From positions 1 to 64,000 of the forward strand of contig NZ_FTNC01000014.1 of assembly GCF_900156285.1 (NCBI RefSeq): DNA of 64,000 nt, given 5' to 3'. The translations under genes were made by a program, and so were the position numbers. How positions within the stretch are numbered: position 1 is the first letter of the stretch; every line of letters begins with the position of its first letter. The notes under the pieces are model-generated. The model was not told the origin of the DNA and did not search any database. It was given only the letters and a program-made list of their open reading frames with translations. This DNA is from Halanaerobium kushneri (GTDB lineage Bacteria; Bacillota; Halanaerobiia; Halanaerobiales; Halanaerobiaceae). Shown here in pieces: positions 1,175 through 12,269 of this stretch.

Positions 1175-3493
1175 TTAAATTTCTACTTCCTGACTTAAAT
1201 TGCTCTCTTCCAAAACAATAATCTGGTCATAATGTTTAAATTCCACCTTGTCTCCTGAAATCAGCAAATATTTAACCTGGTTTTCTTTAACAGTTACTTC
1301 GATCTGACTGCCCTTAAACCTGAGTCTGAACTGGTATTTATCCCAGTTATCCGGTAAATGAGGATGAAAATATAATTTTCCATTAAACATTCTCATACCA
1401 CCAAAGCCCTGCACCAGAGCAAGCCAGGTCCCTCCCATACATGCTGTATGAACTCCCTGATAAGCATTTTCATTATAATCATCCAGGTCGAGTCTTGCAG
1501 TTTGCATGAAATAATTATAGGCCTGATTTTTATAACCAATCTCCGAAGCAAGTATACTATAAATTGCAGGTGAAAGAGAAGAATCATGAGTTGTTTTAGG
1601 TTCATAATAATCATAGTTTCTAATTTTTAATTCTTTACTAAACTTATTTCCTAACTGCAGCATTAAAAGTGTTACATCTGCCTGTTTGATAACCTGATAA
1701 CGCCAAATAATAAGTGGATGCCAGTTTTTAACAAGAGGCAATTCAGACTCAGGAATATTATCAACCTCAATTGGATTTTTATAAAGAAATGAGTCATCCT
1801 GTGGAGTTATCTCTAATTTTTCATTATAAGGAAGATAAATATCTTCTTTTATCTCTTTCATATTCTCAATTTCTTTTTCCGTTAACTCAATTCTTTCTGC
1901 AAGTCGGTTATATTTTTCTGGAGATTTATTTTTAATTATTTCTATCATTTTAACAGCTGTATCCAGATTGAATTTAGCCATATAATTAGTGTAGGCATTA
2001 TTATTTACCCCTGGCTTGTATTCATCAGGTCCACAGACTACATTAAAACAGAATTTATTGTCTTTCATTGGAATATAACTACCCAGACTGAGCCACATGC
2101 GTGCTGTTTCAATTAAAATTTCCAGTCCATAATTTTCGATAAATTCCCGATCTCTACTTACCTGATAATAAAGGTTAACTGCATAGGCAATATCCGCATT
2201 AATATGATATTGAACTGTTGAGCCCATAAAAAAACCGGAAGCCTCTTCTCCATTTATTGTTCTCCAGGGAAATAATGCCCCTTTAAGTTTCATTCTCCTG
2301 GCGTTTTTTCTCGCCTTCTCGAGAGTATTATATCTAAACAAAAGTAAATTTCTGGCTACTTCCGGACGCTGAAAAGCATAAAAAGGAAGTATATAACTTT
2401 CTGTATCCCAGAAATAATGGCCTTCATAATATTCTCCACTAATTCCTTTAGCTGCTACACTGGTCTGACCATCTTTTCCGGCTGCCTGCAAAATATGAAA
2501 AGCATTAAATCTAAATGCCTGCTGGAGTGAATCATCTCCATCAATTTTCACATCTACATCCTGCCAGTATCCTGACATAAATTCTGCCTGTTCTTCAACC
2601 AGATTTTCAAATCCTGTAATAGAAGCTCTGGCATTACTAAGCGGATTCTCTCCTTCTTCCTGACTGTGATTTACACCAACAATTTTATCAATTGTGTATT
2701 CTTCTCCCTCAACTGCACTAATATCAAATATCCAGTCAACTCGATTGTCCGAAGAACGTTTTTTTACTTCAGAATTCTCTTTAGAAAAATCATCAAGTAA
2801 ATGTTCAGCAACATAGGCAACCTTAAAATCTGTACTTTTAACCCTGTGTAAAAGATAACCGGTATTAGTATCAACCTCAGTTTCCATAACTTCTAGAGCC
2901 TTTTTATCTCGCAAATGATGGTGATTACTGACATCACCATTAATAGCAGAGTTAACACTAATCTTACCGGAAAAATTAACTGCCTTGAACTGATATCTTA
3001 TTGCACCAATATGCTCTCTACTTAAAGAAATTAAACGAGTAATTTTGATTTCTATTTTTCTTCCCTGACGATCTTCCCAGAGCACTTTCCGCCTCAAAAC
3101 TCCCTGCTTTAAGTCAAGCTCGCGCTTATAATCTAAAATTTGACCTTTTAAAAGATTCAATTTTTCTTCATTAATGTATAAATTCATTTCACTCCAGTCG
3201 GCTAAATTTACCATTGTCTGTCCTTTTTTAGGTAAATTTGGAGCTTCCTCACCATAAATTATCTCTTCTGAGGCATAAACTCCATTAATATAAAAACCGG
3301 GAGTTGTAGTATCTTCACTACCTGGATAATCTTCTTCAATAGTTCCACGCAATCCCATATAACCATTACCCAGAGTAAAAATTGCTTCATTATGATGATT
3401 ATGTTCTGTTAAAAATTCTTCCTCGGTAATCTTCCAGTCCTGAGATGGATAAATTGCTTCTTTATCCATCTTTCTGGCATGATATGTTCTCAA
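1175..3493 (-). CDS. glycoside hydrolase family 65 disaccharide phosphorylase
   Basis: A 772-residue protein with the GH65 layout: N-terminal beta-sandwich (about 1-270), linker, (alpha/alpha)6 barrel (about 320-690) and a small C-terminal beta domain. The barrel shows HYFWDTE (359-365), GPDEY with the catalytic acid Glu491, and TTHDSSLSP in the phosphate-binding region. The family splits alpha-glucosidic disaccharides (trehalose, kojibiose, nigerose, maltose, glucosylglycerol) with phosphate to give beta-glucose 1-phosphate. The specificity loop reads WRTINGEEASG followed by QYHINAD; from memory maltose phosphorylases differ here, so trehalose- or kojibiose-type activity seems likelier. No beta-phosphoglucomutase is adjacent, although one often is. 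The TTG start has a GGAGGGG site six bases upstream. There is no signal peptide, so it acts in the cytoplasm. Confidence 0.88.
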   Translation of the reverse strand: MRTYHARKMDKEAIYPSQDWKITEEEFLTEHNHHNEAIFTLGNGYMGLRGTIEEDYPGSEDTTTPGFYINGVYASEEIIYGEEAPNLPKKGQTMVNLADWSEMNLYINEEKLNLLKGQILDYKRELDLKQGVLRRKVLWEDRQGRKIEIKITRLISLSREHIGAIRYQFKAVNFSGKISVNSAINGDVSNHHHLRDKKALEVMETEVDTNTGYLLHRVKSTDFKVAYVAEHLLDDFSKENSEVKKRSSDNRVDWIFDISAVEGEEYTIDKIVGVNHSQEEGENPLSNARASITGFENLVEEQAEFMSGYWQDVDVKIDGDDSLQQAFRFNAFHILQAAGKDGQTSVAAKGISGEYYEGHYFWDTESYILPFYAFQRPEVARNLLLFRYNTLEKARKNARRMKLKGALFPWRTINGEEASGFFMGSTVQYHINADIAYAVNLYYQVSRDREFIENYGLEILIETARMWLSLGSYIPMKDNKFCFNVVCGPDEYKPGVNNNAYTNYMAKFNLDTAVKMIEIIKNKSPEKYNRLAERIELTEKEIENMKEIKEDIYLPYNEKLEITPQDDSFLYKNPIEVDNIPESELPLVKNWHPLIIWRYQVIKQADVTLLMLQLGNKFSKELKIRNYDYYEPKTTHDSSLSPAIYSILASEIGYKNQAYNYFMQTARLDLDDYNENAYQGVHTACMGGTWLALVQGFGGMRMFNGKLYFHPHLPDNWDKYQFRLRFKGSQIEVTVKENQVKYLLISGDKVEFKHYDQIIVLEESNLSQEVEI

Positions 3494-3529
3494 TTATGTC
3501 CCCTCCTATTATATTATTCTTAAATTATT

Positions 3530-4342
3530 TTATTCCCTAACTTTGAGAGAATATATGTCAATATTAATTTCCCGAACATTAATACCTGTATTATTTTCTA
3601 GATGTTCTTTTAAAGCAGATTTAAATTTAAGGGCAAATTTTTTAATTTTTAGCCCATAATTAATTTCCAGAGATAAATTAATAAATAATTGGTTATTTGT
3701 TTCTTCAACTTTAATTTTTTTGAAATCCGTTATTTCTTGATATTTTTTAATCCAATATTCAATCAAATCAACCAGAACTCGGTTGCTTATACTTAAATTC
3801 CCATAAAAACTAAACTTTGGTCTTACAATACTTTTTTCGTGTCTGACAGTCTGATTATCTTTTTTAAAAAAAAGTTCTAAAGAATGAAGTAAATAACCAG
3901 AAAAATCTTTTTCAACCTCAATAGTGGGGACTGGTATTACATGTTTCCCTTCATTATTTCGCACTGAAAGAGCTGTTTCTATTTCTTCAGCTGAAGAAAT
4001 CTCTTTGATATCTATGTATTGATCAATTCCGCCCAGTTCCAGTCTCTCTTCAATTCTCTCAACCATTCCAATTGAGGTGCCCAAAATTAATATTTTATTT
4101 TCATTAAGTTTTTTTAAACATTCTTTAACGTCTTTTGTCTGTTTCTCATCAAAAAATAGAGCCCGTCTGATGGCCCCCATTTTACTTTCTTCCCTTTTCG
4201 CAGAACTCCCCGCCATAATTTTACCAGCATATATTAAAAGCCCATCATCAACAATCAAAGGAATCTGATACTGATTTGCCAGTAAAACTGCACGATGACT
4301 TTTACCTGTTCCACTGGGTCCAACAAGAGCATATACTTTCAT
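3530..4342 (-). CDS. P-loop NTPase fused to Asp23/Gls24-like domain
   Basis: A 270-residue cytoplasmic protein in two parts. The N-terminal half begins with a Walker A motif, GPSGTGKS (8-15), and has a nucleotide-kinase-like strand pattern (LIVDDG, ILILGTS). The C-terminal part (about 165-270) resembles the Asp23/Gls24 fold of Firmicute envelope-stress proteins, with alternating strands and the ending NVREINIDIYSLKV. The function of such fusions is not known to me. The gene has its own promoter (4397-4425) and lies 36 bases upstream of the GH65 gene, so the two are probably co-transcribed. Whether it has any role in sugar metabolism is an inference from position. Confidence 0.6.
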   Translation of the reverse strand: MKVYALVGPSGTGKSHRAVLLANQYQIPLIVDDGLLIYAGKIMAGSSAKREESKMGAIRRALFFDEKQTKDVKECLKKLNENKILILGTSIGMVERIEERLELGGIDQYIDIKEISSAEEIETALSVRNNEGKHVIPVPTIEVEKDFSGYLLHSLELFFKKDNQTVRHEKSIVRPKFSFYGNLSISNRVLVDLIEYWIKKYQEITDFKKIKVEETNNQLFINLSLEINYGLKIKKFALKFKSALKEHLENNTGINVREINIDIYSLKVRE

Positions 4343-4396
4343 CTTTTTTAAAATTACCTTCTTTCCTTAAAAATATAAATAGTTGACCTCAGATTG

Positions 4397-4425
4397 ATTA
4401 TATATTTTTTTAGAGTTAATTTCAA
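4397..4425 (-). promoter_or_regulatory. promoter of P-loop/GH65/transporter unit
   Basis: On the minus strand TTGAAA (4420-4425) and a perfect TATAAT (4397-4402) are 17 bases apart. The -35 begins only four bases after the lacI stop codon, so the GH65 unit can be transcribed separately from lacI. Confidence 0.65.
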
Positions 4426-4429
4426 TTTA

Positions 4430-5446
<1,017 letters not shown>

Positions 5447-5450
5447 TTAA

Positions 5451-5475
5451 ATAAAAAGAGGCTGATTTCTCAGCC
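5451..5475 (-). terminator. intrinsic terminator between ABC importer and lacI
   Basis: GGCTGA, loop TTTC, TCAGCC (5460-5475) form a 6-bp stem. On the minus strand it is followed by TCTTTTTAT, and on the plus strand by a T-rich tract as well. It can end the importer transcript, but it also lies downstream of the promoter at 5505-5533, inside the presumed lacI leader. Confidence 0.7.
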
Positions 5476-5504
5476 ACTTTTTTTATTTTAACTGATACTC
5501 TTTT

Positions 5505-5533
5505 ATTGTATATTTTAATAGCTTATAATTCAA
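5505..5533 (-). promoter_or_regulatory. promoter upstream of lacI leader
   Basis: On the minus strand TTGAAT (5528-5533) and TACAAT (5505-5510) have a 17-base spacer, directly after the permease stop codon. Transcription from here would start near 5498 and meet the hairpin at 5460-5475 after about 25 bases, before lacI. Confidence 0.55.
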
Positions 5534-5537
5534 GCAG

Positions 5538-6392
5538 CTATCCTTTGACTGAACCTGCAAGTATTCCCCTTACAAAATAACGCTGTAGGGCAAAGAAAAT
5601 AATTAAGGGTACAACCATTGAAATAAATGCAGCTGAGGTTAATAAGTGCCAGTTCTGTCCGTAGGATCCTACCAGACTGGAAAGTTTTACTGTTAGAGGT
5701 GCAACCTCCTGAAAACCACCTAAATATATTAATGCAACTAAAAGATCATTCCAGACCCATAAAAATTGAAAAATAACTAATGATGCTATAGCCGGAACAG
5801 AAAGTGGTAAAGCCAGTTTATAAAATGAAGTCCAGATTGAAGCTCCATCAATATAGGCAGCCTCAAATAGGTCGTCTGGTAGAGATGAAAAGAAATTATG
5901 CAGCATAAAAACTGCAAAAGGAAGTCCATAACCAGTATGAGCAAGCCAGACCCCAACAAAAGTTCCAGATAAATTAAGGGCATTATAAATTTTTAGAACC
6001 GGAATAAATGTTAATTGTAGTGGAACTACAAGCAGACCAACAATAATTGTATAGACTACCGCTCTTCCTCTAAACTGTAATTTAGCCAGACCAAAAGCCG
6101 CAAAAGCTGCAACTAAAACAGGTAAGGCAGTTCCAAAAATAGCAATTATAAAACTATTACGAAAGGCATAAGCCATTCCACCCTGATTTAAAACTTGTTG
6201 ATAATTTTCGATAGTAAATTGAGTAAACTTTAGAGGACTATTTAGAACTGTCCACCAACCAGTACTACTAACTTCTGATGCAGGTCTAAAAGAGGTGACT
6301 AATAATCCAATCGTTGGTAAAATCCAGATAAACATAAAAGCAATTATGAAAACATTGATTATAATCTTTGTAAAATTCATTTTCTTAAACAT
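5538..6392 (-). CDS. sugar ABC transporter permease, MalG type
   Basis: A 284-residue permease of the carbohydrate-uptake (CUT1) class with six hydrophobic segments. It has the cytoplasmic EAA loop EAAYIDGASIWTSFYKLALP, where the ATPase docks, and the C-terminal QRYFVRGILAGSVKG ending typical of MalG-like subunits. Its ATG overlaps the stop of the partner permease (TAATG), so translation is coupled. No ATPase gene is in the locus; such CUT1 systems often borrow a shared MsmK-type ATPase encoded elsewhere. Confidence 0.93.
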   Translation of the reverse strand: MFKKMNFTKIIINVFIIAFMFIWILPTIGLLVTSFRPASEVSSTGWWTVLNSPLKFTQFTIENYQQVLNQGGMAYAFRNSFIIAIFGTALPVLVAAFAAFGLAKLQFRGRAVVYTIIVGLLVVPLQLTFIPVLKIYNALNLSGTFVGVWLAHTGYGLPFAVFMLHNFFSSLPDDLFEAAYIDGASIWTSFYKLALPLSVPAIASLVIFQFLWVWNDLLVALIYLGGFQEVAPLTVKLSSLVGSYGQNWHLLTSAAFISMVVPLIIFFALQRYFVRGILAGSVKG

Positions 6393-7261
6393 TATTGGTC
6401 TTCACCTCTCATCCGCTTAACATTCATAAATATTACAGGAATTACAAGTACAAATAATACTACTGCTATAGCACTTGCCCTGCCATAATTTCTATATTGA
6501 AACATTTCTTTATACATTCTGTTGGCAATAACCTCTGTTCCGTAATTACCATTTGTCATTACGTATACAATATCAAAAATCTTAAGTACATTAACTGCCA
6601 TAGTAGTAGCAACTACTGCAATTGTAGGTTTCATATATGGTAAAATAATATGTCTAAAAACCTGCCATTCATTTGCTCCATCTACTCTTCCAGCCTCTAA
6701 GAGATCTTTAGGAATACCTTTATAAGCAGCGGATAAAATCACCATGGAAAATCCTGTCCAGATCCAGAGCCCTACAAAAATTAAGGCAAAATTATTCATT
6801 AATGGGCCCTGAATCAACCATCCCTTTGGCTGAAAACCTAATGATGTTAAAATCTGATTTAAAAGACCAATTTGATTTGCTCCCATAGGTTTATAATCAT
6901 AGATAAATTTCCAGATAACACCTGCACCAACAAAGGAAACAGCCATCGGCATAAAGATTATAGATTTAGCAATCTTTTCATACTTTACTTTATCCACTAA
7001 AATAGCCATTAAAAGACCTAAACTTACTGTCCCAAAAGTAAAGAAAACAATCCACATTAAATTATTTCTAAAGGATGTCAGCATAGCTCTAGATGTAAAT
7101 GCATAGATAAAGTTGTCAAGTCCTACAAATTCTTCCGATCTTCTCCCCATAAAACTAAAAATGAAAGTCTGTATTGATGGATAAATTAAAAATAATGTCA
7201 GAAAGAAAAGAGCAGGCCCTATAAATAGGGCCACCCATTTCTTTATATTTTTGTTATACAT
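6392..7261 (-). CDS. sugar ABC transporter permease, MalF type
   Basis: A 289-residue membrane protein with six predicted spans and the EAA motif EAGRVDGANEWQVFRHIILP, the partner of the MalG-type permease. The start has a clear GAGGGAGG site. It lies 56 bases after the binding-protein gene and is co-transcribed with it. Together the two permeases form the membrane channel of a CUT1 importer for an oligosaccharide or glycoside. Confidence 0.93.
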   Translation of the reverse strand: MYNKNIKKWVALFIGPALFFLTLFLIYPSIQTFIFSFMGRRSEEFVGLDNFIYAFTSRAMLTSFRNNLMWIVFFTFGTVSLGLLMAILVDKVKYEKIAKSIIFMPMAVSFVGAGVIWKFIYDYKPMGANQIGLLNQILTSLGFQPKGWLIQGPLMNNFALIFVGLWIWTGFSMVILSAAYKGIPKDLLEAGRVDGANEWQVFRHIILPYMKPTIAVVATTMAVNVLKIFDIVYVMTNGNYGTEVIANRMYKEMFQYRNYGRASAIAVVLFVLVIPVIFMNVKRMRGEDQ

Positions 7262-7317
7262 AACATTCCTCCCTCAGCAATCTCAAATATTCTGAATAAA
7301 TTGCTGTTTCCAATCTT

Positions 7318-8592
7318 TTATTGATTATAAGTATCCTGAGAAATCGATTCTATATACTCAAGCACACCATCTAAATCCTGACCACTTACATAGTCTAAGA
7401 TACCCTGCCAGAATGCTCCTGAACCAACTGCACCAGGCATTGAATCTGAACCATCAAATCTAAATGTTGGTGCTTCTCTTAACATTGCAGCCATCTGTCT
7501 TGTTAGATCATCAGGATAAACATTAGGATTAATATTTTTATTTACACCTAATTTACCTAATTCAGAAACAAAAATTGACTGGGCACCTGCTGTTGATACA
7601 TATCTCATAAAGGCACGAGCTGCTGAAGTATCATTCATCATTCCAAACATACTAGCTGCACCAAGAACTGGTGTTCCGTATTCTTCATCGATTTCTGGGA
7701 AGGGGAAGAAATCATAATCCTCACCAGCAACTAATCCAGGATTATTATCTCTAATAAAACTGGTTATAAAACTTGCCTGACGGTGCATCATAGCCTGAGG
7801 AGGATCTGTAAATAATGCATTAGGAGCATCACCAAAGTTAGTTGCTAAAACAGCAGTAGGTGCTCCATAAGTATATTCTGGATCTTTTGCAATTTCACCA
7901 AAGATTTCAAAAGCTCTTTTTACTCTCGCATCTGTCCAGGGAATTTCATGATTTACCCATTGATCATATACTTCTGGATCTGTTGTTCTAAGCATGATAT
8001 CTTCAATCCAATCAGTTCCAGGCCAGCCACTTGCAGCACCTGATTCTAAACCAATTGACCAGGGTGTATCTCCATTAGCAATCATTTCTTCCTGCAGCGC
8101 TTTTAATTCATCCCATGTTTCTGGAACTTCATATCCCTTAGCTGCAAATTCTTTTGGGTTATACCAGACTAAACTCTTTACGTCAGCAGAAATATACATT
8201 CCATAAAGATCTTCATTATAAGTACCAAGATCAATCCAGGTCTGACTGTATTCTTTATTCATTCTGTCCATATCAAGTACATTACTTAAATTAACAAGAT
8301 CTCCTTCTTCTGCCAGCTGCTTCATCATTCCCACACCAGTTAAAGCAACAATATCTGGTGGGTTTCCAGCTTCTAAACGGGTGGTAACCAGAGTAGGTAA
8401 ATCTCTAGTTCCTTCATACTGAACTTCAATACCTGTAGCCTTTTCGAAAGGTTCAACCATTTTCATAAAAGCATCCAGTTCCTGACCACCCCAGACAGCC
8501 ATTACAGAAACTGAATCCTGCGCTAATGCTGCTGAAGAAAACATCCCTGCCATCAAAACAATACTTAAGATTAATAATAAAGCTTTTTTCAT
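7318..8592 (-). CDS. extracellular sugar-binding protein (family 1)
   Basis: A 424-residue solute-binding protein with an N-terminal signal peptide ending near ALAQ (about residue 25). There is no lipobox cysteine; in a monoderm Firmicute one would expect a lipoprotein, so this favours a soluble periplasmic protein in a diderm cell. The mature part has the family-1 pattern (VWGGQELDAFMKMVEPFEKATGI near the start, NPPDIVAL, aromatic residues lining the cleft). It should capture the sugar carried by the two downstream permeases. The start ATG follows a GGGAGG site. The substrate is not evident from sequence. Confidence 0.9.
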   Translation of the reverse strand: MKKALLLILSIVLMAGMFSSAALAQDSVSVMAVWGGQELDAFMKMVEPFEKATGIEVQYEGTRDLPTLVTTRLEAGNPPDIVALTGVGMMKQLAEEGDLVNLSNVLDMDRMNKEYSQTWIDLGTYNEDLYGMYISADVKSLVWYNPKEFAAKGYEVPETWDELKALQEEMIANGDTPWSIGLESGAASGWPGTDWIEDIMLRTTDPEVYDQWVNHEIPWTDARVKRAFEIFGEIAKDPEYTYGAPTAVLATNFGDAPNALFTDPPQAMMHRQASFITSFIRDNNPGLVAGEDYDFFPFPEIDEEYGTPVLGAASMFGMMNDTSAARAFMRYVSTAGAQSIFVSELGKLGVNKNINPNVYPDDLTRQMAAMLREAPTFRFDGSDSMPGAVGSGAFWQGILDYVSGQDLDGVLEYIESISQDTYNQ

Positions 8593-8739: not shown

Positions 8740-10047
8740 TTATTCAAAGTCATTATCTTCTGCACTGTAAGCAGATAATTTATTAACAACAGCTCCTGCT
8801 GGTTTTTTAATTTTTCCCTCTAATAAAGGATCATCGGTATCTTCCATCCATTCTTTTAATTTTATTTTTAATTTCTGACAAATCTCATCATAATTTTGAT
8901 TATTAATTAAATTATTCTTCTCCAGAGGATCCAGATATAGATCAAAGAGCATTTCCTTATCCCTTTTTTGATCCAAATAACCATTCTCTATTAAAAATTC
9001 TTTGCTTAAACCATCATCAATATTGGCTGCCACAGAATGCTCGTAGTCACCAAAAAATTTAATATATTTATATCTTTTAGTTCTCACAGCCCTCATAGGC
9101 TCATATGCAGCATGATAACTTACTTCAGCAAAAATTTCTTCTCTAATTTCTTCTTTTTCATCTCTTAATAAAGGTAAAATTGAATTTCCTTCTAAATAAC
9201 CCGGGCTTTCTAAATTAAATATCTCGCAAATTGTTGGAAAAATATCCAACTGTGAAATTAAAGCATCAATGGATTTGCCTCTTTTGGGATTATCAGGAAA
9301 CTTAAAAATTAGTGAAACACCAATTCCACTGTCAAAGAGTGTTGATTTCATCATTGGAAAAGCAATTCCATGGTCTGTTGTATAAATAATTAGAGAATTT
9401 TCTGCCATTCCTGCCTCTTTGATTGCTTTAAGAACTCTTCCCAAACATTTATCCGCTCTTTTGGCTGAAGTTAGAAAAGCTGCCATATCTTCTCTAGTTG
9501 CAGTATTATCTGGGATTTTTTCTGGTGTTTTTACATAATCCGGGTTAATCCCAGTTTCAATTTCATCAAATTCTCGATGAGTATATTCCATTCCGAAAGA
9601 AAAAAATAGCGGTTTATCACTTTCTCTATTATTAAGATATCTTTCTGTTTTTTCAACATTTATCCAGTCTTTTACCCTTTCTTCTTCCCTGTCAAGTATC
9701 AAATCATAGCCAATTACTTCCTTATCTGCTGCTTCATGCTGCATCCCGCAGAGAACTGTTTCAAAACCATTTCTGCTCAAAAATTGGACTAAGTGCTGGC
9801 TGTAATCGAGTTCAGCAAAACCTCGATGTGCTAAACCCAGCATTCCAGCTGCATGAGGTGTTCTTCCTGTCAGCATTCCAGCTCGACTGGGAGAACAGGT
9901 TGGTGCTGCACTAAAAGCCTGTCTAAAAAGAGTACCTTCTTGAGCGAGACTCATTAAATTTGGAGTTTCAACTTTATAGCCATAGGGTTCTATATATCTA
10001 CCAGTATCATGAGTATGTAAATAAAAAATATTTTTAATCTCAGCCAT
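8740..10047 (-). CDS. Cys-type (S1) sulfatase
   Basis: A 435-residue sulfatase of the alkaline-phosphatase fold. The active-site motif CSPSR (Cys51 to Arg55) is followed by AGMLTG; the cysteine would be converted to formylglycine. DHG in the TTDHG segment and a following lysine (MMKSTLFD) match later active-site positions. The usual paired metal aspartates near the N-terminus read HDTG here, with His13 in place of the first Asp. The start is set at ATG 10045-10047 with an AAAGGAG site. No signal peptide is visible, so it is probably cytoplasmic and acts on an imported sulfated molecule. A formylglycine-generating enzyme is not in the window. A phosphonate or phosphodiester hydrolase of the same superfamily is the main alternative. 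Confidence 0.85.
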   Translation of the reverse strand: MAEIKNIFYLHTHDTGRYIEPYGYKVETPNLMSLAQEGTLFRQAFSAAPTCSPSRAGMLTGRTPHAAGMLGLAHRGFAELDYSQHLVQFLSRNGFETVLCGMQHEAADKEVIGYDLILDREEERVKDWINVEKTERYLNNRESDKPLFFSFGMEYTHREFDEIETGINPDYVKTPEKIPDNTATREDMAAFLTSAKRADKCLGRVLKAIKEAGMAENSLIIYTTDHGIAFPMMKSTLFDSGIGVSLIFKFPDNPKRGKSIDALISQLDIFPTICEIFNLESPGYLEGNSILPLLRDEKEEIREEIFAEVSYHAAYEPMRAVRTKRYKYIKFFGDYEHSVAANIDDGLSKEFLIENGYLDQKRDKEMLFDLYLDPLEKNNLINNQNYDEICQKLKIKLKEWMEDTDDPLLEGKIKKPAGAVVNKLSAYSAEDNDFE

Positions 10048-10062
10048 TATTATTCTCCTTTG

Positions 10063-10076
10063 TGCAACCGGTTGCA
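10063..10076. promoter_or_regulatory. LacI-type operator in front of the sulfatase gene
   Basis: TGCAACCGGTTGCA is a perfect 14-base palindrome with the central CG typical of LacI-family operators. It lies 16 bases upstream of the sulfatase ATG. A near-identical copy is found at 12270-12283. Confidence 0.75.
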
Positions 10077-10117
10077 ATAATTTTTAAATCAATATTTAAA
10101 TATAAGCTGCTATCTAA

Positions 10118-12226
10118 TTAATCCATAATTATTTTTTCAATTTTTATTTCATCTGGAATCTTGATTTCATTAATTTTAATTTCTTTATTTTTTTTATAAA
10201 TTTCAAAAGTCAGACTCTTATCACCCATACTAAGATTTTTAACTTTAATCTTATTCAGCCATTCCGGTAAACTTGGATTTATAATTACTTTATCTCTGCG
10301 TCCATCGATTTTCAAACCCAAAATTGTTTGCAAAAATAAAAATGCACTACCAGCTGCCCAGGCTTGAGGACTACAGCTAGTTGGATATTCTACAGTTTTA
10401 CTCTCTTCATTAACATCAAAGCCACAATATAATTCGGGCAAACGTAAAAATTCAAAGTCAGCTGCCGCCTTGAAAATATCTGTAATCAGCTGAATGCTTT
10501 CTTTTTGATAGCCATATTTTTTTAACCCTTCAATAATTAAAGAGTTATCATGAGGCCAGATGCTCCCATTGTGATAGCTAATTGGATTATAGCCAAGATC
10601 ACTATTGGCCATTGTTCTTAAACCCCTGCCGCTATTTAAATCACTTTTTAATAATCTCTTTATAAAAAGTTCCCCTTTTTTTTCTTCTATAATACCAGAA
10701 TAATAGCCATGAGCAGGATTAGTTGTTAGAGAATCAATTTGATTTTTATTTTTATCCAGGCCAAGTACAAAGATTTCTTTTTCTGGATTCCAGAACTTTT
10801 GATTAAATCTTTCTTTAAGTTTTAGAGCCTCATTTTTTAACTTCTCAGCTTTTTCTTTTAATTTAAGTTCCTGATAAATTTCTGCCATCTCAAGTTTTGC
10901 CTGATAGACATAGGCCTGTACCTCTGCTAAAGCTATTGGTGGAACAGCGATTTCTCCCTTACTATTTATACTGGAATCTACTGAATCCTTCCACCCCTGA
11001 TTGACAGTGAAATCTTCTGTTTGACTGGAAAATTCTACAAATAAATCATTATCTTTATCTCCATATTTATCGATCCAGCTTAATGCCAATTCCAAGTTGG
11101 GCATTAACTCTTTAATAAATTCAAGATCACCGGTCCAGCGATAATATTCCCCTGCTAAAACTATAAATAAAGGAGTAGCATCTATGGTACCATAATAAGG
11201 TGTATGGGGTATTTTTTTTAGATTTGCTAATTCACCAAATCTAAGTTCATGAAATATTTTGCCAGGCTCTTCTTCTCTTAAAGGATCAATTTTTTTACCC
11301 TGATAGGCTGCAAGAGTTTTTAGAGTTGCTCTGCTTAAATCAGGCTTAAAAATCAAGGTCTGCAGAGCTGTTATTATACTATCTCTACCGAAAGGAACTG
11401 CATACCATGGTATTCCAGCAATTGGCAGTTGACCATAACCAACATCAGAAGTCAAAGTTTTTAAATCAAGACTGCTTCTCTGGAGAAACTGATTAAAAAT
11501 CTGATTATCAGTTTCAACCTGAAGAGAATTGTTAGTCCAATTTACATATCCGGCTTCTACTTTAGTTTTTATTTGACTAAAATTATTATATAATTCTGCT
11601 TTTGCGTCAGGATTGGATTCAGATGAATCTTCAGTTTTAATTGAGAGAGTAATTTCTTTTTCTTCCCCTGCATCCAGCTCAAATTCAAATTTAACTTTAT
11701 TTTGTTTATATAAACATAAATCGGATTCACTTGCAATGATAACTGATCGCTCAACTTTATCTAAACCATGATAAATTAATTTTAAATAATTATTTGTTGT
11801 GGTTTTTTTTACTCTTTTCCTTTCCAAATCTTCTTTAAAATATTTTCTGACTTCAAAAATATCTAAAAAGTCAGCATCAATTTCAATTTCTAAACAGATT
11901 TTTTTCTGGTTGTGAGCATAATTTTTAATTTTAAAATTGTCATAAAATACATTATCAACTAAAGTTTCTTTTCGTTTAACAAGTATTTTGCCTTCAGCAA
12001 GCTGATTGGTTTGAGCATTTGTAAGTAAAATTTCATTAAAAAGATTATCTTTAGTTTCAGATTTTAATACCAGTAATTTTTCTCCATTGAGTAATAAATT
12101 ATATTTACTTAAATAACGAGTATCATTACGATAAAGACCATTCTGATCAAATTCTGCTTTAACTATATCAGCACTCCGATCAGTAATTAAAAATATATCA
12201 TCGTTTTTAATAACATTATAATCCAT
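10118..12226 (-). CDS. amylo-alpha-1,6-glucosidase / glycogen-debranching-like enzyme
   Basis: A 702-residue cytoplasmic protein. The N-terminal beta domain (about 1-230) is the GDE_N_bis type seen in bacterial amylo-alpha-1,6-glucosidase-like proteins. It is followed by an (alpha/alpha)6 glucosidase domain with GRDSIITALQTL, TIDATPLFIVLAGEYY, NQGWKDSVDS and HNGSIWPHDNSLI. Candidate acid residues lie in the GRDS and WKDS segments. Enzymes of this group act on alpha-glucosides from glycogen branches to small glycosides. The sulfatase and importer context favours a small imported substrate. The start is set at ATG 12224-12226, seven bases after AGGAG; a GTG two codons upstream is too close to that site. 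A LacI-type operator precedes the gene. Confidence 0.82.
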   Translation of the reverse strand: MDYNVIKNDDIFLITDRSADIVKAEFDQNGLYRNDTRYLSKYNLLLNGEKLLVLKSETKDNLFNEILLTNAQTNQLAEGKILVKRKETLVDNVFYDNFKIKNYAHNQKKICLEIEIDADFLDIFEVRKYFKEDLERKRVKKTTTNNYLKLIYHGLDKVERSVIIASESDLCLYKQNKVKFEFELDAGEEKEITLSIKTEDSSESNPDAKAELYNNFSQIKTKVEAGYVNWTNNSLQVETDNQIFNQFLQRSSLDLKTLTSDVGYGQLPIAGIPWYAVPFGRDSIITALQTLIFKPDLSRATLKTLAAYQGKKIDPLREEEPGKIFHELRFGELANLKKIPHTPYYGTIDATPLFIVLAGEYYRWTGDLEFIKELMPNLELALSWIDKYGDKDNDLFVEFSSQTEDFTVNQGWKDSVDSSINSKGEIAVPPIALAEVQAYVYQAKLEMAEIYQELKLKEKAEKLKNEALKLKERFNQKFWNPEKEIFVLGLDKNKNQIDSLTTNPAHGYYSGIIEEKKGELFIKRLLKSDLNSGRGLRTMANSDLGYNPISYHNGSIWPHDNSLIIEGLKKYGYQKESIQLITDIFKAAADFEFLRLPELYCGFDVNEESKTVEYPTSCSPQAWAAGSAFLFLQTILGLKIDGRRDKVIINPSLPEWLNKIKVKNLSMGDKSLTFEIYKKNKEIKINEIKIPDEIKIEKIIMD

Positions 12227-12269
12227 TAGCACTCTCCTATGTTAATTTGTCAAAATATTATGTATTAAA

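Follow-up and report, generated by a model that had tools for sequence, protein, structure and literature searches.

The window, by which we mean the whole 64,000-nucleotide stretch of Halanaerobium kushneri DNA that was analysed, carries a minus-strand open reading frame that the ORF list starts at an ATG and whose product joins an N-terminal P-loop domain, via a conserved HVIPVP segment and a linker, to a C-terminal Asp23 domain of the envelope-stress type (Table 1); we call this product the P-loop/Asp23 protein. The next gene downstream, on the same strand and starting 36 bp away, encodes a GH65 enzyme (Pfam domains PF03632, PF03636 and PF03633) and is followed by an EamA transporter gene. 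A terminator-like site was looked for in the gap between the first two genes and none was found; their co-transcription is plausible. The promoter-like site just upstream is only suggestive, because the consensus scan returned 21 such sites against 20.3 expected in shuffles.

On the upstream side lie a LacI regulator (Pfam) and then sugar ABC transporter-like ORFs (named by eye), which together occupy positions 4430-8592; a sulfatase-like ORF and a 704-aa glycoside-hydrolase-like ORF, also named by eye, follow at 8740-12232. The LacI and ABC transporter-like stretch is probably a local rearrangement or insertion. A fabF-like gene lies within three genes of the P-loop/Asp23 gene in nine of the 11 genus regions (names by eye), and the remaining two regions stop at contig edges.

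The gene is under purifying selection (dN 0.049 and dS 0.80 against the genus relative L002, by NG86). Conservation of the full architecture reaches well outside the genus, and the gene is therefore neither a chance ORF nor an assembly chimera.

Table 1. Coordinates of the gene, its encoded domains and motifs, and flanking features in the window
Feature	Position	Strand	Basis or remark
P-loop/Asp23 fusion protein, 270 aa	3530..4342	-	ORF list; full-length family in relatives and across the phylum
P-loop domain, residues 1-131	3950..4342	-	AlphaFold2 model and weak kinase-like matches
Walker A GPSGTGKS, residues 8-15	4298..4321	-	Sequence; core invariant in 60/60
Asp-Asp D32-D33, end of second strand	4244..4249	-	Invariant in 60/60; strand 29-32 in model
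HVIPVP segment, residues 134-139	3926..3943	-	H134 and P137 invariant; I136 and P139 0.98; model confidence low from about residue 134 on
Asp23 domain, residues 185-268	3539..3790	-	PF03780 at residues 206-264; helix-strand-strand-helix-strand fold
GH65 glycoside hydrolase/phosphorylase, next gene	1175..3493	-	Pfam; neighbour in this lineage only
Promoter-like site, 11/12 consensus positions, just upstream of gene	4397..4425	-	Consensus scan

A conserved two-domain family

The P-loop/Asp23 protein belongs to one conserved family that is widespread in many anaerobic bacteria and is not specific to the window. We found its P-loop half in 167 of 398 genomes sampled across the phylum (115 of 266 genera), as a single copy in 166 of the 167, the exception being genome G182. 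Every open frame among the matches listed was at least 269 aa long; thus a free-standing P-loop half was not seen among those matches. Within the order, 26 of the 31 genomes searched gave a single full-length match; all further matches in the order were short and confined to Asp23. At least 564 loci were confirmed in named genomes, and 80 named loci were kept, with names mostly clostridial, Negativicutes-type or Halanaerobiales; Sporomusa ovata and Ruminiclostridium papyrosolvens are among the carriers of the gene. Two loci labelled Spirochaetes or Spirochaeta MAG (L111 and L127) also hold the family, at 41% identity, by transfer or misbinning. Four f18 genomes have longer open frames (489-557 aa), which raised the question of an extra fused domain; this reading was rejected. 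In G085, the one inspected, the surplus is by eye a high-GC read-through overlapping an aminomutase-like gene. At locus L165 of an f18 genome (about 3477-7053) the gene is flanked, again by eye, by an aminomutase-like gene on one side and GAPDH/PGK-like glycolysis genes on the other.

A preliminary description, made from the sequence of the window, had reported an N-terminal GPSGTGKS motif in a kinase-like domain, fused to an Asp23-type domain in a combination that it could not name, and all of this has held, the kinase likeness being weak. Residues invariant among 60 aligned sequences include G8, S10, G11, G13, K14, S15, D32, D33, G34, K49, T89, S90, R128, H134 and P137, and the mean frequency of the commonest residue is 0.62 in the P-loop domain, 0.78 in the segment 132-150 and 0.43 in the Asp23 domain. 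AlphaFold2 modelled residues 1-151 alone with a mean pLDDT of 84.8 (137-151 below 50) and the whole protein with one of 76.7 (134-184 below 50). The N-domain model shows a strand at 2-7, a helix at 14-24 and a hairpin after strand 2; Walker A on such a strand-loop-helix, with its core invariant in all 60 sequences, places the domain in the P-loop NTPase superfamily.

Within that superfamily the nearest folds are those of P-loop kinases, all of them weak matches: Foldseek ranked adenylate, shikimate, gluconate and APS kinases high (best E 0.011, above 0.001), and VIA-align 2 ranked Clp1, adenylate kinase and PFK-2 (best Z 6.8, under 8, with rmsd 5.8 and 135 aligned). Like gluconate, shikimate and adenylate kinases, the domain combines a P-loop with acidic residues where strand 2 ends and a kinase-like fold, but it gives no confident sequence match to P-loop kinases past the P-loop and strand 2, and it has the hairpin after strand 2 and the HVIPVP segment. 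With shallow alignments, hhalign gave 88% probability against shikimate kinase over the P-loop and strand 2 only (2/13 loci in the set) and, over longer stretches, 26% against adenylate kinase (4/14 loci) and 38% against MiaA (11/14 loci).

Several more specific identities were tried for this protein and rejected. Pfam returned P-loop-type matches only for the N-terminal half, and the one above its cut-off, isopentenyl transferase (PF01745, 24.2 bits against 20), nonetheless matched only at positions 1-61 of 233, the P-loop end. HPr kinase resembles the protein by eye in the P-loop and in the Asp-Asp after strand 2; hhalign spanned 32-33 residues at 17.8-18.9% probability (12/12 loci, shallow alignment), PF07475 had no match in the window protein at E<=1 and, at E<=0.1, matched one of 60 members (best E 0.0092), and 12 of 15 relatives carry a distinct gene for HprK. 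Replacement of HprK was likewise considered: HprK is absent from G014, G015 and G018, all of which have the P-loop/Asp23 gene, yet present in G017, which is without it. For the whole model, the top Foldseek match was Era (3iev_A, E 2.1e-5), which would have meant an Era-like GTPase with an RNA-binding domain, but the rmsd of 20.2 over 309 columns makes this at best a superposition of two separate domains.

The C-terminal half matches Asp23 (PF03780), scoring 41.8 bits where the cut-off is 28, and the same model was matched by 60/60 aligned members at E<=0.1; this is the family that also holds YloU, AmaP and Asp23. In fold it is close to the C-terminal domains of cation diffusion facilitators such as MamB and YiiP (6qfj_A, Z 11.2, rmsd 2.4, 80 residues), a likeness of fold alone, at 15% identity and with no transporter domain here. 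The window's genome carries three Asp23 genes besides this one, in frames of 121-180 aa, which makes the P-loop/Asp23 protein, at 270 aa and with a nucleotide-binding half, a fourth kind.

Judged by its sequence and model, the N-terminal half is a predicted nucleotide-binding, kinase-like domain that is claimed by none of the kinase families tried; domain searches of both halves, suggested in the preliminary description, thus bore out Asp23 above its cut-off and assigned the other half to no kinase family. The Asp23 domain and the P-loop are each known; for the whole protein no NCBIfam model reached its cut-off, no name was present in Pfam, in NCBIfam or in the published papers found, and no paper was found on the fusion or on Asp23 with MmdA, the papers being judged by titles and abstract openings.

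The protein might act as a kinase, its P-loop domain phosphorylating a small molecule or a macromolecule and its Asp23 domain merely oligomerising or tethering, a possibility about which we are doubtful. Beyond the kinase-like folds, the invariant residues D32-D33 (where strand 2 ends), K49 and R128 would suit a phosphotransfer site, which the acidic pair and R128 may form together. However, the fold matches fall short of both thresholds given above, shikimate and HPr kinases align over the P-loop and strand 2 only, adenylate kinase and MiaA reach low probabilities, and the neighbours, identified in part, gave no sign of a substrate pathway.

Co-occurrence and proximity with carboxyltransferase genes

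A carboxyltransferase (PF01039, E<=1e-30) was present in 57 of 62 genomes with the P-loop/Asp23 gene, compared to 23 of 62 without it (Fisher p 1e-10, uncorrected for kinship); the gene-positive genomes hold 87 copies in all, and five of them have none at this threshold. Both sets were hand-picked from tables and are related by descent; the negatives were taken one per family from genomes missing in the full positive list, a few being under 90% complete. The co-occurrence was also seen inside the window's class, where a carboxyltransferase was found in seven of eight tested genomes with the gene and in none of the four tested, of eight, without it. Proximity accompanies co-occurrence: by a hand count from coordinates, 15 of the 62 genomes have a carboxyltransferase no more than 12 kb from the gene (nine of them no more than 5 kb), against 0.86 genomes expected from copy number and genome size, the 12 kb cut having been set after seeing the distances.

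Our neighbour survey covered 62 loci from 57 families (the window; L042, L047, L048, L050, L055, L168 and L169; L225-L278), in which 650 neighbours within six genes were clustered, the clusters being identified in part. Ten of these loci have a carboxyltransferase of about 515 aa within six genes, on either side and on either strand (the L228 copy is cut by the stretch end), and this label is scattered over the gene tree, with 10 changes, at least eight of them forced. The sole NCBIfam match of the ten at E<=1e-60 is TIGR01117 mmdA; all score below its curated cut-off, so that the substrate of the carboxyltransferase is uncertain. Four of the ten loci also have a biotin-carrier-like protein, named by eye. 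The two carboxyltransferase genes of the window's own genome are on other contigs, and the link is therefore invisible locally in the window.

Prismane (PF03063) served as a control: among the first 40 of 62 genomes in each list, it was found in 35 gene-positive and 38 gene-negative ones. Being nearly universal, it is a weak control for co-occurrence and none for lifestyle. Among the copies listed for the 40 positives, none lay within 12 kb of the gene, two lay just beyond that cut (12.7 and 13.1 kb), and at least eight of the 40 genomes had a copy 12.7-28 kb away; seven of these genomes belong to the divergent dnaD/dnaI clade described below. Long synteny therefore contributes to proximity in that clade, to which three of the 15 close carboxyltransferases (G061, G063 and G072) also belong.

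A possible partner of biotin-dependent carboxylases

PMC5437119 describes a related case in B. subtilis, where YqhY, of the Asp23 family, is encoded in an accBC-yqhY operon, its loss selects mutations in all acetyl-CoA carboxylase subunits, and its authors propose that it restrains acetyl-CoA carboxylase. YqhY and the P-loop/Asp23 protein thus share both the Asp23 family and a genetic association with a biotin-dependent acyl-CoA carboxylase system; they differ in that YqhY is encoded alongside accBC, with no P-loop domain mentioned in the passages of PMC5437119 used here, whereas the P-loop is present in every listed member of the family described here and the enzyme is of MmdA/PccB type. The window has LacI, GH65 and EamA as neighbours in place of the accB-accC operon that marks the YqhY subgroup, the clusters of the 62 loci being identified in part.

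The carboxyltransferase association, taken with the YqhY case, fits the P-loop/Asp23 protein into the same pattern with a different biotin-dependent enzyme, and we tentatively propose that it is a nucleotide-gated partner or regulator of MmdA/PccB-type biotin-dependent acyl-CoA carboxyltransferases. Its P-loop domain would bind ATP or GTP, and probably hydrolyse it or transfer from it, thereby reporting the energy state. Its Asp23 domain would oligomerise and, possibly at the membrane, physically touch the assembly of the carboxylase or decarboxylase; this contact would set the activity, assembly or location of the enzyme, as proposed for YqhY on acetyl-CoA carboxylase, with control presumably running from protein to enzyme.

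Asp23 proteins are abundant and widespread, and in this family Asp23 is joined to a nucleotide site that is conserved, with a candidate partner enzyme that can be tested. If the proposal is true, Asp23 domains might be general adaptors of biotin-dependent carboxylases, and a single-copy gene would be at hand to test this. A broader version, which we offer as speculation, is that Asp23 proteins with a built-in NTPase may gate MmdA/PccB-type carboxyltransferases in anaerobic Bacillota, an energy-sensing control of propionyl/methylmalonyl/malonyl-CoA metabolism that would generalise the pairing of YqhY and acetyl-CoA carboxylase and might be coupled to replication initiation via dnaD-dnaI operons.

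We think it unlikely that the gene instead has an independent housekeeping role, e.g. envelope maintenance like other Asp23 proteins, with the neighbourhood signals reflecting inherited synteny or genome content. Such a role would agree with a gene that is single-copy, widespread and conserved, with neighbours that differ from lineage to lineage, and with the Prismane control copies that stand at 12.7-28 kb too; but plain synteny predicts neither a carboxyltransferase proximity that is scattered over the tree in both orientations nor a co-occurrence that persists inside one class, and both of these suit a carboxyltransferase partner.

Replication genes, GH65 and other neighbours

Neighbours vary by lineage (fab and Mo-cofactor-like genes, RNase Y-SpoVS-DUF3870, YtxC, dnaD/dnaI, GH65; mostly named by eye). 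The commonest in the survey were DnaI-like loaders, seen in 15 loci, and DnaD, whose two clusters cover 11 and 7 loci; both were assigned by Pfam on cluster representatives (DnaB_2, IstB-like). DnaD and/or DnaI helicase-loader genes were within six genes in 18 of the 62 loci: downstream on the same strand in seven, divergent in ten and convergent in one. Among the same-strand seven, one has an intervening gene and one has DnaD only; the gaps are 1-12 bp in five and 101 bp in one. The tight order of gene and dnaD occurs in L226, L247, L252, L260 and L278, and L229, L236, L241 and L268 are divergent from dnaD; tight operons with dnaD and dnaI, or divergence from them, are found in many clostridial families.

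These loci raise the distinctly improbable alternative that the protein acts in replication initiation, switched by nucleotide and linked to the envelope, as a partner of the DnaD/DnaI helicase loader. More loci have this neighbour than have a carboxyltransferase, and six of the same-strand loci and all ten divergent ones form separate supported clades of the gene tree, L265 standing apart. However, the dnaD/dnaI label needs only 4 changes on that tree, against 15.7 in shuffles, a clustering so strong that inherited synteny explains much of the link; moreover, the divergent block repeatedly contains aminotransferase-like and Lrp-like genes as well, and no dnaD/dnaI link was seen among Halanaerobiales loci or loci with the RNase Y-SpoVS context.

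GH65, from which the preliminary description had drawn a possible role linked to sugar phosphate supply, is the immediate neighbour in 11 of 11 genus relatives and lies 2.5-2.6 kb off, with other genes between, in two relatives of the same family. It was found near the P-loop/Asp23 gene in 0/12 other Halanaerobiales regions and in 0/67 named loci outside the order, many of which are truncated where their contigs stop (Frackibacter, L068, was placed among the outside loci by a 'same class' label). In four of 106 sources (L092, L096, L116 and L125) the gene was missed by the simple ORF caller, and these were left out of the neighbour clusters and searched for GH65 by tblastn; the caller also missed the gene in L165 and L166. 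GH65 orthologues of 56-59% identity occur in members of the order without the P-loop/Asp23 gene (G017, G019 and G025). The linkage is thus confined to the Halanaerobium lineage, and the description had itself named a lack of conserved linkage as grounds for abandoning its idea. For all its adjacency within the genus, and the short same-strand gap in the window, a sugar or nucleotide kinase or regulator tying GH65 sugar phosphate to the envelope is therefore very improbable, although the two-domain architecture and kinase-like fold on which that idea was built survive.

Other Halanaerobiales loci (L044-L049 and L051-L054) have xanthine dehydrogenase-like, Mo-cofactor-like or FabG/ACP-like neighbours, by eye. 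The RNase Y-SpoVS-PHP context (L071, L073, L075, L102 and L128) places a DUF3870 protein just downstream of the gene, and PF12986 was confirmed for the L071 copy.
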